Virus record (IMG/VR): IMGVR_UViG_3300021964_000192
Span: 1 to 37,416 of that record
DNA: 37,416 nt
Source of the DNA: a virus
Strand: one strand, 5' to 3'
How positions within the stretch are numbered: position 1 is the first letter of the stretch; the number at the start of each line of letters is the position of its first letter. Both the position numbers and the translations under genes were made by a program. Positions 1,617-22,532 of the stretch are shown one piece after another. Under the pieces are notes generated by a model. The model did no database searches. It worked only from the letters and a program-made list of their open reading frames with translations, and was not told the origin of the DNA.

Positions 1617-3803
1617 TTACAGAACCCCTACCCGCCCTTTTGCTATGGTAAATATTTTCCTTATACTTATATATCCACTGTCCTGTCCATCAGTCACCGA
1701 AGTTGTTGTAAATCCTGTCAAGACTAATTCTTTTGTAATTGCAGAAACATCATTCTTTTGATATACGGTTAATTCATATGATGAAAGGTCGGGAGTTACG
1801 GAGTGATTTACTAGTTTTACAACATCTCCAGTCGAAATACCAGAGAACTGGTTTGGTTCCGAAAGTGTTACTGTATATGTTGTTGCACCAGAACCAATAA
1901 GATTAAATTGACCAGTGCTAATTCCAACATAGGTTGAGAATCCAGCTGGTTGAGTCAAGTATTCTTTAGCAATAATATTATATCCAAGAGAAGATGTAAG
2001 ACCAAGAGTATTAGTTTGTGCCGCAGTCAGATTTAGTTGAATATATCCTTCCTCTCTACCAAATATTCCAGAATCTGGTGTTGGTATATTGAAGGTCATG
2101 AACCTATCACCAAGCGTTTCTGTCGATGTTCCTTCATCAATGATGGTTCCAATACCAGCAGATGTAATAGTAACTGCAGAACTACTGATATCTTTTGGAT
2201 CACCATCTTCAAGATACTGAAGAACGGGACCATAGAAATCAACACCTCTTTCAACACTAATGTTTATTGAGTTATAATCACTATCATAAATGTCTGGTGA
2301 TGGAATATATTCATCCGAAGGACCAAGAATGATATTATTTGTTGTGGTAATCTTTCCAGTCGCAAATACTCTTAATCCAGTTCCACAATTACGAATAATA
2401 TTTCCACCAGTTGCAACAACAGATGTTACAGAGAAATCTACTGGACCAGAAAAGTTCTCGAATAAACAATCATTAACTCTTAAAGTGTCAGATTCCTGAA
2501 CATTCAAAGGATAATATGTGTATCTATCGGTAAGGGAAGAGTCTACAAAGGTTGAACTTTCAACCAGTACTCTTGATGAATCATAAAGATACAAACCATG
2601 AGCAGGAGAATTTCTAATTTCGACTCCTTTAAAGAGTGATGAACTTGTTTCTGGAAAATACATGATGTAATTATCAAGGTCATCATCAAACATGATATTA
2701 TTACCACTGTTACCATCAATGGTTAGGTCCATAACGGTAATATCTCTACCAGAAGTTGTGCCTAATCCAACAATATTACCATCAAATGCTAATAGATTTC
2801 CTTCACCATCCGATTCATCGGTTGCAAAATACTGAGTTTTAATAATGGAATTTTTTCCATTTCCCCTCAAAGTGAATCCACTGGGTATTAAAAGTTTATT
2901 TGTCAGGAATGTTCCACTCGGAAGAGTAATATAATTTAATCCACTTTGAAGCGCGGCATCAATGGCAACCGTGAATGCATTGGTATTGTCATGTACAACC
3001 TTTACCTGGTTTGTGGTTCCAATTCCAATGTTTGTATTATAATTTCCAGCAACTTTTATTGAATTAGTCCCAACTGCCGTAACAGTATCAATCGACCATC
3101 CTCTTGCTCCTGTTGTAGTTCCCACTCCAGGAAAATGTATTTGATCTACATATTCATTTTTTGTTCCTTTCGTGGACCACTCTGTTTGGTCATAGGTTCC
3201 ATAATCTCTCCAGGTAATTCCAGAAGTATCCGATTTTAGTTCTTTTGGACCCAAAATGGCGATTAATTTCGAATCTTCAATATCGGTGCTTCCAGCACCT
3301 ACACTTTCCTGACGGAAAACAAGGAGACCATGATTTGTATCGGTTCTTGCAAGAGTGAGTGAAACGTGATTCAAATCATTGAAGTCAGCAATATCAACAT
3401 GTCCAATTCCATTTGTCGGTGTAATTTGTGATGATACACCAACTTTTCCATTTCTGTAGTGATACTGGGAAACCCAATAGCGATATGTATTTACAGTAGC
3501 CGCAGTTCCAACTTTAGTCGCACTTAGTGAAGACAGAACTGGAGCAGGAACCAGTGTTGAATCTGATGTGGGTGTTACACCAAAGACTTTAACTTTCTGG
3601 TCAACTTCAAATGTTGCTGTTGAAATACCACTAATTTCAAAATTAGATCCCACATTAGAACCTATTCCAATATAAACATTTCCATCTGGACTGAAATTAG
3701 AATTACTAAATTCAAAAGTCGTCGCAATAATTTTACCAGATACCTCTAGATCGGTAATCTCAATCGGTGGTGCATTTGTGAAATACTGATATAACTTTGC
3801 CAT
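1617..3803 (-). CDS. Tail spike-like protein with right-handed beta-helix
   Basis: A 728-residue protein. The N-terminal ~240 residues are Thr/Gly/Ile-rich beta sequence with repeated GIGS/GIST turns. Residues about 270-500 read like a pectate-lyase-type parallel beta-helix: an opening of the form INAAL..G..ITLPSGTF, then FTLRGNGKNSII, ITVMDLTIDGNSGNN and LYLYDSSRVLVESSTF, with regular short strands and Asn ladders. The C-terminal ~200 residues are again beta-rich. In phages this fold usually forms trimeric spikes that bind or degrade surface polysaccharide, but I cannot identify catalytic residues. It lies 2 nt after the 292-residue gene in the late tail operon, so a virion role is likely. 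Enzyme versus plain adhesin is undecided. Confidence 0.7.
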   Translation of the reverse strand: MAKLYQYFTNAPPIEITDLEVSGKIIATTFEFSNSNFSPDGNVYIGIGSNVGSNFEISGISTATFEVDQKVKVFGVTPTSDSTLVPAPVLSSLSATKVGTAATVNTYRYWVSQYHYRNGKVGVSSQITPTNGIGHVDIADFNDLNHVSLTLARTDTNHGLLVFRQESVGAGSTDIEDSKLIAILGPKELKSDTSGITWRDYGTYDQTEWSTKGTKNEYVDQIHFPGVGTTTGARGWSIDTVTAVGTNSIKVAGNYNTNIGIGTTNQVKVVHDNTNAFTVAIDAALQSGLNYITLPSGTFLTNKLLIPSGFTLRGNGKNSIIKTQYFATDESDGEGNLLAFDGNIVGLGTTSGRDITVMDLTIDGNSGNNIMFDDDLDNYIMYFPETSSSLFKGVEIRNSPAHGLYLYDSSRVLVESSTFVDSSLTDRYTYYPLNVQESDTLRVNDCLFENFSGPVDFSVTSVVATGGNIIRNCGTGLRVFATGKITTTNNIILGPSDEYIPSPDIYDSDYNSINISVERGVDFYGPVLQYLEDGDPKDISSSAVTITSAGIGTIIDEGTSTETLGDRFMTFNIPTPDSGIFGREEGYIQLNLTAAQTNTLGLTSSLGYNIIAKEYLTQPAGFSTYVGISTGQFNLIGSGATTYTVTLSEPNQFSGISTGDVVKLVNHSVTPDLSSYELTVYQKNDVSAITKELVLTGFTTTSVTDGQDSGYISIRKIFTIAKGRVGVL

Positions 3804-9505: not shown

Positions 9506-11305
9506 TTATCTCCTAATGTATCTAGTAGGTCCAGGTACAATAATTGGTTGGGTACTATTAATAACAAGAACCTCAGTCATACCCTCACCATCAAAGAATT
9601 GTGTAAGCATATCTAATCCACCTTTTCCATATCCTGTTTGTTTTAGTGGTGTAACTGGACCTTGACCCTGCTTTTTTTGTTTCTTGACTAACTCATTTAT
9701 ATTTGTTGGTCCAGCATTCAAGTGATTCAATGAGTAAATTACACCATCTGGTGCTTCAATTAAAACTCTATTACCATACCCATCACCCTGATCGGGAATG
9801 AACTGTTTAAATTTAAGACCGCCAGTTAGTGTAATTGATTGATTTGGGTTTCCAGCATAATCTTCTCCTCGGTGCATTTTACCCCATCTCAAACCAATAC
9901 CAGAAGTAAATTTTAATGCCTGAGGCATTGGCATACCATTAACTAATATACTATATTTCACTCCTTGAGGAATACCTGCTTTGTAGTTATTCATATTTTG
10001 AATATGAATATGAGAACCACCTGGTCCAGCAGGTACTGTATATCCTGTATATCCAACAGTTCCGACCACTTCATTCGGATCAATTTTGACTGCTGGTAAT
10101 CCAGCTGGTGTTGATATTACTGGACCAGGTGCATTTGGATCATTCGTAGTATACGGAGAAGATATTGCTGTTGATATTCCAGATTTTGAATATAATTCTT
10201 TAAAGTTGTCTATAAGAACTTTAAATCTTTTATTATTTTCTTCTTGAGAATCAATGATAAAACTCTGATCGGATGCATTATTTTCAAATGTAGAAAATGT
10301 CTGTACTGATGCTCGTGCTTTTTTGAGTTTTCCTGATTCTCCAGGAAATGCTCCACCAGAAGAACTTGATGCTGGACGAACAGTTCCACCCTGTGAAAAT
10401 CCAGGTATTTCTGCTGCTTTAAGATCTTTTACAATATCAGTATCAAATCCCTCAGCAACATTATAACCAATATCTGCCCTCCTCATAAATTCTTCAGGTT
10501 TTATATCATAACCATAAGTATCGGTTGCTGTTGTTTTTGTGCCTGCACCTATCCCTAAAAAACCACTAGTTTTCACCCTTTTAAAAGTTCCAACACCAGG
10601 AACATTCAAATTAACTGGTTCATTCTTGTCTCTCTGTGCTCCGGATATTGCAAGACGAGTTGTGGTAAAATTCTGTTCGGTAAGTTTTTGTTCTTTAAAT
10701 GCAGTTACAACATCACTTCTAACTTCTTCATCGGTTCTCTCACGCAATTCATCTCCAACAAAATCATTAACGGCAGCATCTGCTGCTTTTGCTTCTGATT
10801 CAATAGAACTTGTTTCTCCAACTAATGAATCTATTTTTTGCTCTAGTTCTTTTCTTTCTGCTTCTAGTTTTGCTTTTTGGGGATTGAAGAAATTGACAAT
10901 ATCAATTAAAACCATAAACAAATCACCAGTTATTTTTAGAGTTGTTTTTAAAGTTTCAATAATCCATTTATTTTTATCCAAGAAATTTTGAACTCGTCTG
11001 ATAATCGAAGGTAAATTATTTACTAATATTCCCAATAAAACGTTTCCAGCAAACTCCTTCAATCTATCAAATAAACCCATTGCAGGTGCAGATATTTTTT
11101 TTGCCGCACCTGCAACCATACCAGAACCAGGTATTCCCGTACCCTCCACAAAGTTCTCTTTTTGTATTCTTTTTGCTGCTACTTGCTGTCTTTTGAAAAG
11201 TCTTTTTTCTTCCGCACGAATTTTTCTTAGTGACTTATTACCACTAATTAAAGTACTTTTAATATTTCTTACATTAAGTTTTAAAGATGTTAATGCGGAT
11301 TCCAT
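9506..11305 (-). CDS. Tail hub/tape-measure-like protein with permuted M23 peptidase domain
   Basis: 599 residues. The N-terminus is a basic coiled coil (LRKIRAEEKRLFKRQQVAAK), then a hydrophobic segment LFDRLKEFAGNVLLGILVNN (~78-97) and a second one (GDLFMVLIDIVNFF, ~127-140), followed by coil. The C-terminal third resembles a LytM/M23 zinc endopeptidase: GIGLRWGKMHRGEDYAGN gives H478 and D482, and YGNRVLIEAPDG ... LNHLNA gives H528. The HxH zinc motif is not after these but before them: GGSHIHIQ, H432 and H434, preceded by VGTVGYTGYTVPAGPGG. All four expected ligands are thus present in permuted order. It is probably a virion-associated peptidoglycan hydrolase standing in for the missing gp5 lysozyme. 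The N-terminal ~130 residues are related to those of the next upstream gene. Confidence 0.65.
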   Translation of the reverse strand: MESALTSLKLNVRNIKSTLISGNKSLRKIRAEEKRLFKRQQVAAKRIQKENFVEGTGIPGSGMVAGAAKKISAPAMGLFDRLKEFAGNVLLGILVNNLPSIIRRVQNFLDKNKWIIETLKTTLKITGDLFMVLIDIVNFFNPQKAKLEAERKELEQKIDSLVGETSSIESEAKAADAAVNDFVGDELRERTDEEVRSDVVTAFKEQKLTEQNFTTTRLAISGAQRDKNEPVNLNVPGVGTFKRVKTSGFLGIGAGTKTTATDTYGYDIKPEEFMRRADIGYNVAEGFDTDIVKDLKAAEIPGFSQGGTVRPASSSSGGAFPGESGKLKKARASVQTFSTFENNASDQSFIIDSQEENNKRFKVLIDNFKELYSKSGISTAISSPYTTNDPNAPGPVISTPAGLPAVKIDPNEVVGTVGYTGYTVPAGPGGSHIHIQNMNNYKAGIPQGVKYSILVNGMPMPQALKFTSGIGLRWGKMHRGEDYAGNPNQSITLTGGLKFKQFIPDQGDGYGNRVLIEAPDGVIYSLNHLNAGPTNINELVKKQKKQGQGPVTPLKQTGYGKGGLDMLTQFFDGEGMTEVLVINSTQPIIVPGPTRYIRR

Positions 11306-11315
11306 ATCTTATTAC

Positions 11316-13700
11316 CTATAATACTATACCATAGATTGCATAGTTATTCATGATATATGGATTTGATTCGTCATAAGAACGAATAGTAATGGATGGAGAT
11401 GAAGATTGTGATGGTTGTATTGGTGGTGATTCTGGTGTTTGTTGACCAGCAAGATTGAGTGCTGGTTGAGTCATGTTAATTGTAGTGACTTTTCCTTCTC
11501 CAGATTTGGAAGAACCAGGACCACCTCTTCCTCTTCTATATGTTTGAATTTGTTTTGGCGTCTTTCTTTTTTGTGTTCTAACAATAGGAGTTGAACTACG
11601 ACCACCATCGCCAGCACCACCGAGACCACCACCACCAATATTCTTTAGTTTTTCTGCTTTTTTTTCATTGATTAAACCAATTAGTTCTCTGTTAAAAGAT
11701 TCGGTTAAACGACCAAATTCTTCATTAACAAGTTCTTGTTTTTGATTATTTTTTGTCTGCATTCCAATAGCATTAGAAAGTGCCGACCACATTCTTCCAG
11801 CATTATCATTAATGTCCTTCAGAAGTGGACGGAAAAGATTTGCTGCTGATGAACGAATAACTTCCTCACCAGGAGCAAGCATCGCAGGAACACTATCGGT
11901 TGTTTGAGAACCCTGACCGAATACTGTTCCACCTTTCGATCTACCCTGAACATTGGTATAACTCGTTACACCTTCACTAAGTTGTCTCTCAAGAGCTCTT
12001 GGATTTGCTCCTGGTTGAATTTCCGGCAAATTCATACCAAATCCACCATTTTCAGGTTTGGTATTCAAAATTCTTCTTGCAGATGCTCTATCAGTAAGAG
12101 TTTGATATTGAGAAGATCTTCCATGGTATATGTCAAGCAATCTTCTTTTAGTGCTTAACCTATTGGCACCAGTAGAAACATTGTAAATATTAGGATTATC
12201 CTTAAACTGTTTAGCTCTTATAGAAATATCTTTTGCAAACTGTTTATAATCTACTTGGGCTTCACTGCTTGTTGGGGTTTTAGTTTTAGTATTTCTTGCA
12301 CCCTGTCCAATATTTTCAAGTGGATTTTTACCTAGTGTAGATGATTTTGCACCTCTACCACTAGAAACAGAAGGTGTTGAACCTCTTGGGAATCTAGTTA
12401 GTGGTGAACTTGCTCCTACATCCAAATTTACAGCTGGTGGTCTTTCAGTAACTGAGAAATCAGCACCTGTTCTTCTTGCTTGTGGAGATATTGAAGAACT
12501 GGTACTACTTCCCAAATTTATTTGAGGTCTTTGCATCTTAGGTGTAGGTCTATTCAATCTCAGTGGCATTCCTCTTCCCCTAGACATTAGTCCTGCAGTA
12601 ACTAATGATTCAACAATAGGAATTGCCCATGATGGTAAATTGAGACTATTAAATAATCTTGTTGTAGCATCTGGAGTTTGTTGCTCAAATGATGGGTAGG
12701 GAATGTTAGTCCCCGGGAAAGTCATTGGAGCAGGAGTATTAATTGGAGGAGAATCCCCTGGTTTATAATTCTTTTGCCACTCTTCAAAGATTTCATCAAT
12801 AGATTGTCCAGTTTGGGTGCTAGGTGACGTGGGTGTTGGTTTAGCTCTTACAGGTTGTCCAAGTAAACCACCTTTTAGTAAATCAAGAGCACTTTTGGAA
12901 AGAATATACCCACCAGCAACCAGAGCAGCAGCAATTGTTCCAACAACACTTTTGACATTGTCAGCAACACACTTCATAACACCCTGACAAAAATCTGGAG
13001 ATCCTGGTTTTGGTCCTTGGTTTGTACCTCCCCTTCCTTTTAAACCTCGAAGACGATTAAATATTTTCCTTAATGTATTTGCAAATCCAACTAATTTTGC
13101 AATAGCACCAATTGCTTTTGCAATAAGAATACCACCAAAAATCTGCTTCCAATATGTTTTTAAGAATTGGAATATTTTAATTAACTTATCTCTATTTTCT
13201 TTTTTAGATAACCAATTCCAGGCATTATTAATTACAATTCCAGCACCAACTAAAGATAAAAATTCTAGTATTTTATCAAAAATACCTTTAACAGGTGCTA
13301 ACACTTTAGCACCCAAAGTACCAATTTTTGATCTATCTACCCCTCTTTCTACAAATGCTTCTTTTTTAACTAATTTTTGTCTTCTTAAGTTTTTCTTGGT
13401 GGCGAGTAAATTTTGCTTTCTCTCGGCAATTCTATTGGCAAAATCTAGTGCTAACTGCTTTTGTATTTCTATTAGTATGCGATTGGTTTCTGCAAGTACA
13501 ATAGTTTGATTAGTATCTACTTTTAACTGCTCACTTTTTTGTGCAGAAATTCTTCGGGGTCTTACAAATGAGACCGTCGACCTACCTAATTTTGGCTTAT
13601 CTCCAGTTTTTTCACGAGAAAATATTGAGGAAGATATTTTACTCTTCCCCATTTTTGGAATTGATGGTGCTTGGAATACTGGTTGATTTTCTAATGCCAC
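11316..13700 (-). CDS. Probable tail tape-measure protein (gp29-position)
   Basis: 794 residues from a GTG directly after the stop of the 56-residue ORF; an in-frame ATG at residue 17 is an alternative start. Residues ~60-110 are a basic coiled coil, followed by FDKILEFLSLVGAGIVINNA and a second hydrophobic helix IFGGILIAKAIGAIAKLVGF (~170-195), and another at GTIAAALVAGGYILS (~255-270). The centre is Pro/Ser/Thr-rich, and a segment KGGTVFGQGSQTTDSVPAML followed by APGEEVIR is a signature I associate with tape-measure C-terminal parts. The position immediately after gp26 and its frameshift ORF is where tape-measure genes lie in other tailed phages. T4 gp29 is 590 residues, so the 599-residue neighbour is a rival candidate. 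Confidence 0.6.
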   Translation of the reverse strand: MALENQPVFQAPSIPKMGKSKISSSIFSREKTGDKPKLGRSTVSFVRPRRISAQKSEQLKVDTNQTIVLAETNRILIEIQKQLALDFANRIAERKQNLLATKKNLRRQKLVKKEAFVERGVDRSKIGTLGAKVLAPVKGIFDKILEFLSLVGAGIVINNAWNWLSKKENRDKLIKIFQFLKTYWKQIFGGILIAKAIGAIAKLVGFANTLRKIFNRLRGLKGRGGTNQGPKPGSPDFCQGVMKCVADNVKSVVGTIAAALVAGGYILSKSALDLLKGGLLGQPVRAKPTPTSPSTQTGQSIDEIFEEWQKNYKPGDSPPINTPAPMTFPGTNIPYPSFEQQTPDATTRLFNSLNLPSWAIPIVESLVTAGLMSRGRGMPLRLNRPTPKMQRPQINLGSSTSSSISPQARRTGADFSVTERPPAVNLDVGASSPLTRFPRGSTPSVSSGRGAKSSTLGKNPLENIGQGARNTKTKTPTSSEAQVDYKQFAKDISIRAKQFKDNPNIYNVSTGANRLSTKRRLLDIYHGRSSQYQTLTDRASARRILNTKPENGGFGMNLPEIQPGANPRALERQLSEGVTSYTNVQGRSKGGTVFGQGSQTTDSVPAMLAPGEEVIRSSAANLFRPLLKDINDNAGRMWSALSNAIGMQTKNNQKQELVNEEFGRLTESFNRELIGLINEKKAEKLKNIGGGGLGGAGDGGRSSTPIVRTQKRKTPKQIQTYRRGRGGPGSSKSGEGKVTTINMTQPALNLAGQQTPESPPIQPSQSSSPSITIRSYDESNPYIMNNYAIYGIVL

Positions 13701-13871
13701 TTACTGTTGTTGTGCCTTAAGGTTTTCTTCTTCGATGTGTTGCTGAAGCATTGTTACATATACTTCTCGCTCCCACGGTATCATATTTTCAAGCTCTGTT
13801 AATGAGTATTTATGATACTGCATCAAGGCAAAATTAGTCTTGTAATACACCTCAAGGCTAGTATGTGACAT
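13701..13871 (-). CDS. gp51-position small tail-assembly ORF, probably reached by -1 frameshift
   Basis: 56 residues, reading MSHTSLEVYYKTNFALMQYH and ending EEENLKAQQQ. It is Tyr-rich and helical, with the IPWEREVYVTMLQQHIEEEN pattern familiar from the C-terminal parts of tail-assembly chaperones. It begins 2 nt after the gp26 stop and lies in the -1 frame relative to gp26. There is no ribosome site before its ATG (upstream bases are TTTTTTCAGTTAACG). A slippery heptamer sits 6 codons upstream, so the ORF may be expressed mainly as the C-terminal part of a gp26 fusion of about 298 residues. T4 has gene 51 directly after gene 26. Identity with gp51 is positional inference. Confidence 0.7.
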   Translation of the reverse strand: MSHTSLEVYYKTNFALMQYHKYSLTELENMIPWEREVYVTMLQQHIEEENLKAQQQ

Positions 13872-13873
13872 CG

Positions 13874-14596
13874 TTAACTGAAAAAAGATGCCAAGCCCTC
13901 AAGAACTACTTCATTATTCTTCTTGGTATTTGGATTCTTCACAGTAATCGTATGTGAAAGTTTTGGCATCGTTGTAAAGAACTCTTCAATTTCTTTGAAC
14001 TGCTTTGTATTCATTTGTTCAACGAATTCCATCATTTCTTTTTTAGTACAGTCCGCAGCAGACCAACATTCATCTTGATTATAAACCATCTCAATACAAG
14101 AAGAAATCATATCAAGAGATTGATCGACACCACTTCCAGCATCTTTCACTTCGAAGTTATTTTCAACAAATTGTTCCATTGATGGATACTTCATTTTCAT
14201 GGAAAGAGTATCATCTAATTTAATAATATTATTGTGGTTTTTATCTCTTTGAACCTTAATGGTATCAATATCAATTTCCATCTGAACTTCTGTTTCGCCA
14301 TCGTCTGGGCAAGTTACATTAACTTCAATTTTTTCACCAACAGACTTTGCACGAATGTTCAAGAACAAATATTCAATGTCAAATGTGGCAAGTTCTGATA
14401 CTTTAACGCCTTTGGTAATAATACAATCGGTCAAAATTTCAATAATGGCATTGGTAATCTGACCCATGTCTTCAGATTCTAGTGCCATCACTAGGATTTT
14501 TTCTTCTCTTACTAAGAAAGGACGATACTTAATTTTCTTTCCAGTAGAGGGAATCTCCAACTCATATGTTGGAGTATTAATTTTTGGTAAAGGCAT
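13874..14596 (-). CDS. 26: gp26 baseplate hub / tail-assembly protein
   Basis: 240 residues beginning MPLPKINTPTYELEIPSTGK, which I recognise as the T4_baseplate (gp26) family: KIKYRPFLVREEKILVMALE, then ITNAIIEILTDCIITKGVKV and SELATFDIEYLFLNIRAKSV. In T4 it acts in hub assembly together with gp51 and the tape measure. It follows the gp54-like gene by 32 nt; a late-type AATAAATA lies 27 nt before the ATG. The gene ends GLASFFS; the codons for SFF carry the sequence T TTT TTC in the correct phase for -1 slippage into the next ORF. Confidence 0.85.
   Translation of the reverse strand: MPLPKINTPTYELEIPSTGKKIKYRPFLVREEKILVMALESEDMGQITNAIIEILTDCIITKGVKVSELATFDIEYLFLNIRAKSVGEKIEVNVTCPDDGETEVQMEIDIDTIKVQRDKNHNNIIKLDDTLSMKMKYPSMEQFVENNFEVKDAGSGVDQSLDMISSCIEMVYNQDECWSAADCTKKEMMEFVEQMNTKQFKEIEEFFTTMPKLSHTITVKNPNTKKNNEVVLEGLASFFS
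13880..13886 (-). promoter_or_regulatory. Candidate programmed -1 ribosomal frameshift site
   Basis: On the minus strand the last sense codons of gp26 are TCT TTT TTC AGT TAA. This contains T TTT TTC as X XXY YYZ in the zero frame. Slipping back one base gives CAG TTA ACG ATG, entering the 56-residue ORF. A Shine-Dalgarno-like GAGGG (13896-13900) lies 9 nt upstream of the heptamer, the arrangement that stimulates -1 slippage in bacterial dnaX. The ORF itself lacks a ribosome site. Predicted products are gp26 (240 residues) and a fusion of about 298 residues. Confidence 0.7.
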
Positions 14597-14622: not shown

Positions 14623-14630
14623 TATTTATT
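14623..14630 (-). promoter_or_regulatory. Late-type promoter element AATAAATA
   Basis: Minus-strand AATAAATA, one base from the T4 late consensus TATAAATA, 27 nt before the gp26 start and inside the 3' end of the gp54-like gene. Confidence 0.5.
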
Positions 14631-15486
14631 AACCAATTTGAGAATTAATTTGATTAAGTTCTTGGAAAGTTCCTGCTCCACTTAAACCAAAACTTGTTGT
14701 TCCCGGAATATTGCTATTAGTTGCGGCATCCAAGTTCAACTCAAATAATTGTTGCTGTTGTATAATCGAAGGATCACCACCACCAATTACATTTTGTCTC
14801 CATACTCTATATCTATCATAGTACATGGTAACAGTTACTTTCGTCACTTCTGCTTCACCATATTGTAATGGAATAGCAGAAACTGCCTTGGGAAAAGAAT
14901 CTATAAGTTGATATGTAATTTGAGTTGCACCAGGAACATTATAATTTTTTTCAAACTTTGTAATATAAAATCCCGATGCGTTTTTATAGTATTTTGGATA
15001 ATTAAAGCGGCGATAATAGTTACTACCAACTTTTTCATCATAAACACTTGGTTCCTGAAGATCAAAACTATTACCACCAGATATAAAGTTCATCCATGAC
15101 TCAAAGAACATTAAAATTTTATAATCTCTATCAACATAGAATGAAAAATCTATGTCGGTATTAATTCTGGTATGTGCATACTCCTGAACTACACCCTGAA
15201 AATTGTCTTTGATTTCTCCAGTTGCATACGTTGATGATGGAAGAGTTGCACTTGCACATGAAAATGATAACAACTTTTTAAAAGTATCTTTCCATTCAAA
15301 ACCATAAATTGGTTTTAGTGATGGTATTTTTAAATGTTCAATGAATGGTTGTTTACCACTAGTATCAGTTCCCCAACCATTTTCGATAAAAACCTGATAT
15401 AGATTTGACCGTGCAAATCCACCTTCCCCAAGTGTAGAACGAACATCTTTAGAAGTTAAAGTTTGAATATTGGGGATATTAGGCAT
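14629..15486 (-). CDS. 54: gp54-like baseplate tail-tube initiator
   Basis: 285 residues. It begins MPNIPNIQTLTSKDVRSTLG and shows the tail-tube type fold pattern: ARSNLYQVFIENGW, IDFSFYVDRDYKILMFFESW, YPKYYKNASGFYITKFEKNY, QITYQLIDSFPKAVSAIPLQ then YGEAEVTKVTVTMYYDRYRV, which is the conserved strand set of gp19/gp54 proteins. T4 gp54 (320 residues) polymerises on the baseplate with gp48 to start the tube. The gp48-like gene lies just across the divergent promoter, supporting gp54 rather than the tube protein gp19, which is shorter (163 residues in T4). Confidence 0.7.
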   Translation of the reverse strand: MPNIPNIQTLTSKDVRSTLGEGGFARSNLYQVFIENGWGTDTSGKQPFIEHLKIPSLKPIYGFEWKDTFKKLLSFSCASATLPSSTYATGEIKDNFQGVVQEYAHTRINTDIDFSFYVDRDYKILMFFESWMNFISGGNSFDLQEPSVYDEKVGSNYYRRFNYPKYYKNASGFYITKFEKNYNVPGATQITYQLIDSFPKAVSAIPLQYGEAEVTKVTVTMYYDRYRVWRQNVIGGGDPSIIQQQQLFELNLDAATNSNIPGTTSFGLSGAGTFQELNQINSQIG

Positions 15487-22250: not shown

Positions 22251-22499
22251 TTAGATTTTTTTTACTCGTGAACCAGGTGCTTTTGATGCTTTATGTAAAA
22301 CGTCATTCCATCCAGGATTTTTGGCGACGAGTTTATCTCGCCACTCACCAACCTCTCCAGGTTGAGGGCAGGTTGATGGGTCCGACCAATCCCGTTGCCA
22401 ATCGGGATTGTCTTTACACCACTGAGACCAGTCATGAACACTCATCACTACTTCTTTTTGTTCACCAGTCTCCTTGTGAACTACAGGATATGTTGCCAT
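22251..22499 (-). CDS. FmdB-like small protein without zinc ribbon
   Basis: 82 residues: MATYPVVHKETGEQKEVVMS, then WSQWCKDNPDWQRDWSDPST and GEVGEWRDKLVAKNPGWNDV, ending SRVKKI. This is like the C-terminal region of FmdB-type proteins of cyanophages, with the PxWxxVL..SK.PGS.V ending, but the N-terminal CxxC zinc ribbon typical of bacterial FmdB is absent (only two isolated Cys). It sits between thyX and phoH, 33 nt after thyX. Function unknown. Confidence 0.7.
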   Translation of the reverse strand: MATYPVVHKETGEQKEVVMSVHDWSQWCKDNPDWQRDWSDPSTCPQPGEVGEWRDKLVAKNPGWNDVLHKASKAPGSRVKKI

Positions 22500-22532
22500 T
22501 GTTAGGAAATAATAATATTCAAGATAATTTAT

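Follow-up and report, generated by a model that had tools for sequence, protein, structure and literature searches.

In tail assembly chaperones (TACs) of the lambda G/GT kind, ribosomal slippage, at G_GGA_AAG in lambda itself, yields a few percent of a long form, whose C-terminal domain binds the tape-measure protein; the G/GT frameshift was reportedly described by Xu, Hendrix and Duda in 2004. Among T4-like phages, Vladimirov et al. are said to have found in 2022 that frameshifting is conserved in several groups, T4 having separate genes 26 and 51. The title of that work (Vladimirov, Gautam and Davidson, Virology 2022) states that the TAC genes of T4-like phages were identified, and the accessible parts of two later papers cite it: the PRFect paper for T4-likes that have both a short gene and a long, fused one (PMC10885494), and the phage Adele paper for poly-T -1 sites in T4-like TAC-N genes (PMC12846349). 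For the TAC locus of Vandenendeviridae/Andersonviridae, to which Adele belongs, the -1 extension is described as open in all genomes, with a conserved poly-T motif, GTTTTT (PMC12846349). Going by this title and the citing texts, the central TAC inference for T4-like phages has thus been published already, and the TAC identity of their gp26 and gp51 is known. No cyanophage case appears in the accessible part of the Atkins 2016 recoding review, and the cyanophage records examined here either list gp51 separately or leave it out. An earlier note, made from the sequence alone, had called the joining of the two genes absent from standard T4-like annotation, which is true of the annotated records examined, but the conclusion itself was published in 2022.

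The window analysed here is a 37,416 nt stretch of viral DNA (IMG/VR record IMGVR_UViG_3300021964_000192), in which a 56-residue ORF follows gp26 at the position of gp51. We conclude, with a probability of about 95%, that the two ORFs are one TAC gene, in which a frameshift would yield TAC-N and TAC-NC, proteins that would coat the tape measure.

The gp26-gp51 junction and its conservation

The features of the junction and its flanks, with the evidence for each in brackets, are:

13874..14596, minus strand: gp26 ORF, read as TAC-N, the zero-frame product of 240 aa (PHROG 150, PF12322, AF2 model)
13880..13886, minus strand: slippery heptamer T_TTT_TTC, zero-frame codons TTT TTC (sequence, conservation, codon use)
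13874..13876, minus strand: zero-frame stop TAA, one codon past the heptamer (sequence)
13701..13880, minus strand: -1 frame extension QLTMSHTSLEVYYKTNFALMQYHKYS..., read as the C-terminal domain of TAC-NC (PHROG 634, PHROG 150)
13871..13701, minus strand: 56-aa ORF at the gp51 position, inside the -1 extension (open reading frame)
13869..13871, minus strand: ATG of the annotated-type gp51 start (Leu codons at the aligned position in many relatives)
13896..13900, minus strand: GAGGG, Shine-Dalgarno-like candidate stimulator 9 nt 5' of the heptamer (codon use, anti-SD pairing)
14629..15486, minus strand: upstream tail-tube-family protein, at the lambda V position (PHROG 45, E 2.7e-37; Pfam Phage_TTP_2, E 2e-21)
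11316..13700, minus strand: downstream tape-measure-like protein of 794 aa, at the lambda H position (PHROG 25241, position, length)

The reverse strand reads GAG GGC TTG GCA TCT TTT TTC AGT TAA CG ATG at the junction, and rereading it bore out what the earlier note had described: the end of gp26 with T_TTT_TTC in phase, the entry of the -1 frame into the 56-residue ORF, and GAGGG at a distance of 9 nt. Read in the -1 frame from the heptamer, the fusion continues as FF-QLTM-SHTSLEVYYKTNF... and totals about 298 residues. Only one other ORF in the window ends with an in-phase heptamer from which the -1 frame stays open for a sizeable stretch, a 93-aa ORF at 22251-22532 (AAAAAAA, 31-codon extension).

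The gene pair lies between tail-tube and tape-measure genes, as in the lambda G/GT kind, with a weak match for the tape measure: the 794-aa protein matches tape measure PHROG 25241 over about 54 residues (E 5.9e-7), and its assignment, weak by sequence, also draws on position and length. Relatives keep the order tube - gp26 - gp51 - tape-measure-like, and that of the window matches the lambda order V - G/GT - H. The 599-aa protein encoded after the tape-measure-like gene (9506-11305, minus strand) has a weak C-terminal peptidase M23 match.

Scanning viral contigs turned up 80 close relatives; in all 79 whose contig extends to the junction the sequence is TTT TTC NNY STOP and the -1 frame carries the small ORF. 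With further scans and annotated records the set grew to 201 loci, many of them redundant; scanning with the protein of the Agrobacterium phage yielded no relative. An in-phase T_TTT_TTN stands near the gp26 stop in 199 of the 201 loci and the small ORF is in the -1 frame in every one, counts that refer to related sequences and are inflated by phage kinship, not to independent events. Heptamer and phase, whose loss in relatives the earlier note had named as a refutation, are therefore conserved. The last base of the heptamer varies (C 135, T 35, A 28, G 1), so the final residue can switch from Phe to Leu with the six T staying in place. The motif is found in Kyanoviridae, Pootjesviridae (Agrobacterium phage), Menderavirus (Stenotrophomonas) and non-T-even Straboviridae, the last comprising phages of Cronobacter, Aeromonas and Vibrio, KVP40 (L204) included. 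In two loci (L119 and L121) it lies two codons further upstream with the phase kept (GGT TTT TTC GGT TTA GCA TAA). Two loci lack it. One is Salmonella phage S16, whose genes are arranged as in T4; in the other, Vibrio phage D510 (L093, about 3563-3600), CTT TTC AAG TAA, lacking the poly-T, is followed by an overlapping ATG (TAATG), and retention of the homologous -1 ORF there suggests that coupling has taken over or that the slippery site is a weak one.

Codon use was examined in 60 gp26 sequences less than 95% identical to one another. The final Phe codon is TTC in 60/60, against 26% TTC among Phe codons there, an in-phase T_TTT_TTN occurs elsewhere in gp26 at 10 of 23,006 codon positions, and other Phe-Phe pairs are written in this way in 5 of 95 cases. 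On the final-codon and Phe-Phe counts we reject the view that the poly-T is a mere by-product of Phe-Phe. In gp26, the Leu TTA at codon 3 and the Phe TTT at codon 72 likewise show no nucleotide change in 60/60 sequences.

Relationship to T4 gp26 and gp51, and predicted fold

The gp26 protein matches PHROG 150 (E 5e-80) and Pfam PF12322 (E 3e-74); this is the single PF12322 match in the 37.4-kb record, which may be a fragment, so that a separate full-length TAC-NC gene of the T4 type may lie outside it. The small ORF matches PHROG 634 and also the C-terminal positions 239-280 of PHROG 150, the gp26 family, an initial sign that a single chain holds both parts elsewhere. Read from 13886, the -1 extension matches PHROG 634 at E 1.6e-28 and the C-terminus of PHROG 150 at E 1.2e-6, and inclusion of the -1 residues 5' of the ATG raised the scores from 94.8 to 100.3 and from 23.8 to 29.2 bits. 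A profile of the fusions aligned with T4 gp26 at positions 10-236, covering only the part before the junction, and with T4 gp51 at 24-281, spanning it (bit scores 79 and 39, which outweigh the E-values in a search of four targets only). T4 gp51, aligning through the junction, thus corresponds to the long form encoded by a single ORF, and T4 gp26 to the short form. The note had described T4 as having genes 26 and 51 in this order, a statement that fails, as they lie on opposite strands and are divergent, both in T4 and in S16.

The AF2 model of gp26 (mean pLDDT 87) best matched the solved structures 3fgx (Z 7.9), the HK97 TAC 2ob9 (7.7), 3klu (7.2) and 5ir0 (5.1), with the first unrelated structure at Z 2.7; residues 1-96 are the region matched by 2ob9, 3fgx and 3klu. 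We take 3fgx and 3klu to be TACs, or TAC-like prophage proteins. With three of the four top chains TACs, the model suggests a TAC fold for the short protein; the Z values are below 8 and the arrangement is possibly a common one, so the match is supportive rather than proof. Foldseek gave no significant match for the model in the PDB (2ob9, E 1.1, probability 0.72), and a sequence search for a solved structure found none. Compared with lambda, some members of the gp26 family presumably have a larger, zinc-ribbon-like second half, judging by CxxC motifs.

Because T4 gp51 spans the junction and T4 gp26 does not, and given the match to the HK97 TAC fold, gp26 and 'gp51' are assigned as TAC-N and TAC-NC. 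Of the claim that the pair is the G/GT counterpart, the chaperone assignment stands on the T4 alignments and the HK97 fold, but the equation of the two gp51s does not: T4 gp51, at 249 aa, represents the complete TAC-NC, and the 56-aa ORF matches its C-terminus only, being the C-domain alone.

Candidate stimulators and alternative readings

Within GAGGG, the Glu codon is GAG in 47/60 sequences against a background of 25%, and predicted anti-SD pairing of this stretch is stronger than in synonymous shuffles, both in cyanophage-type loci (-7.9 vs -6.0 kcal/mol) and in the others (-6.8 vs -5.7 kcal/mol). The upstream motif singled out in the note is, accordingly, selected at the codon level in relatives. 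Its spacing from the heptamer resembles that of dnaX, and it probably raises the slip rate. Most cyanophage-type relatives (L082, P-SSM2, at 3723-3753, and most of L003-L079) also have an 11-bp hairpin, AGTATGGCTCA-N9-TGAGTCATACT, that begins 5 nt past the heptamer. Downstream stability in cyanophage-type loci exceeds that of synonymous shuffles (mean z -4.0; 88% at p <= 0.05), hairpin codons are biased (TCA 34/34 vs 24% background, TAC 32/41 vs 22%), and 95.8% of the base pairs are able to form, compared with 28-40% in slid controls; double changes are few, and the case therefore rests on synonymous constraint, not covariation. An RNAalifold consensus across all cyanophage-type junctions showed no structure, the hairpin being seen in a subset by per-sequence folding, and no Rfam family matched the junction. 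The window junction lacks the hairpin of its close relatives (per-sequence folding z about 0), and may form a weaker structure further downstream (z -3.2 for nt 10 to 80). A tentative scheme, to which we give slightly less than even odds, is that the cyanophage frameshift has two drivers, the GAGGG that precedes the heptamer by 9 nt and an 11-bp hairpin that follows it after 5 nt and holds the pseudo-start ATG, and that the window lineage lost the hairpin, stimulators turning over with T_TTT_TTN fixed.

Most ribosomes would halt at the gp26 stop, giving the short form TAC-N, and a minority, we infer, move into the -1 frame at T_TTT_TTC as the tRNA-Phe in the P site and the one in the A site each re-pair with TTT; that two tRNA-Phe slip together in this way on such a heptamer is standard. 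Slipped ribosomes would bypass the stop and produce TAC-NC with its C-terminal domain, and both forms may then coat and fold the tape-measure protein from the next gene during tube assembly.

The start of the -1 ORF was compared in 98 nonredundant fusions. No ATG, GTG or TTG occurs within its first 14 codons in 25 of these, with the residues conserved all the same, and an SD-like tetramer at a suitable distance is found in one and absent from 97; in the window, the ATG of the 56-aa ORF has none within reach. The lack of a ribosome site, proposed for the window, extends in this way to its relatives, and the second ORF, in the -1 frame, appears not to need an independent start, as in the lambda G/GT kind. 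The ATG used by annotators for gp51 aligns with Leu codons in many relatives, and gp51 is left unannotated in S-CAM4, Cronobacter LPCS28, Aeromonas CC2 and Agrobacterium Atu_ph04, though the -1 frame codes for the same domain. Reinitiation (translational coupling) at the ATG 2 nt past the stop could make gp51 a separate small protein, the poly-T being a Phe-Phe by-product; this would fit the presence of that ATG in 39 of 43 cyanophage-type loci, the TGATG or TAATG overlaps of L090-L092 and the listing of gp51 as its own gene, but the fusions devoid of a start codon, the Phe and Phe-Phe codon counts given above and the presence of both parts in one chain in T4 gp51 make it very improbable. Absent starts and SDs, together with T4 gp51 colinearity, lead us to reject gp51 as a separate gene.

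With the ATG so widespread, reinitiation could occur as well, and frameshifting to TAC-NC might be accompanied by some free C-domain in cyanophages. The ATG is retained in most cyanophage-type loci, with Leu there in other clades, but it has no SD, may be just Met in place of Leu and is missing from L012, L033, L065 and L070, so that we consider this dual output unlikely. Slippage of RNA polymerase on the T run, in place of the ribosome, would yield a fused message and has in its favour the 7-8 T of some relatives (L085 type); the run in the window is only six T, it holds the ribosomal phase everywhere, even where displaced (L119, L121), and ribosomes would be the target of both the SD-like element and the hairpin, all of which renders it hardly credible.

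Significance and comparison with known systems

On the single-gene reading, an abundant group of marine phages has, in place of two mis-annotated 'baseplate hub' genes, a single recoded gene that probably helps to control tail length; the same reading makes sense of genes 26 and 51 of T4, which had been puzzling. Compared with the accessible text on Vladimirov et al. 2022, the hairpin and the codon-level tests may be additional, and the hairpin in many cyanophage relatives and the selected GAGGG have possibly not been reported before. The cyanophage gp51 annotation is still to be mended, and the cis elements are open to reporter tests.

The locus shares with lambda G/GT a short and a long chaperone, here predicted to come from one start by -1 slippage, between the tube and tape-measure genes, and differs in its slippery site, T_TTT_TTC. 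T4 gp26 is homologous to the TAC-N part and T4 gp51 to the whole fusion, but in T4 and S16 each has a complete gene of its own, the two being transcribed divergently and without a frameshift. As far as the accessible text goes, the TAC locus of Vandenendeviridae/Andersonviridae, e.g. phage Adele, has a similar -1 extension and conserved poly-T, in another phage group and with another motif. A further correspondence, going by the citing texts, is with Vladimirov et al. 2022, who reportedly treat the same genes 26 and 51, with the same TAC-N/TAC-NC assignment and poly-T frameshifting in T4-like groups.
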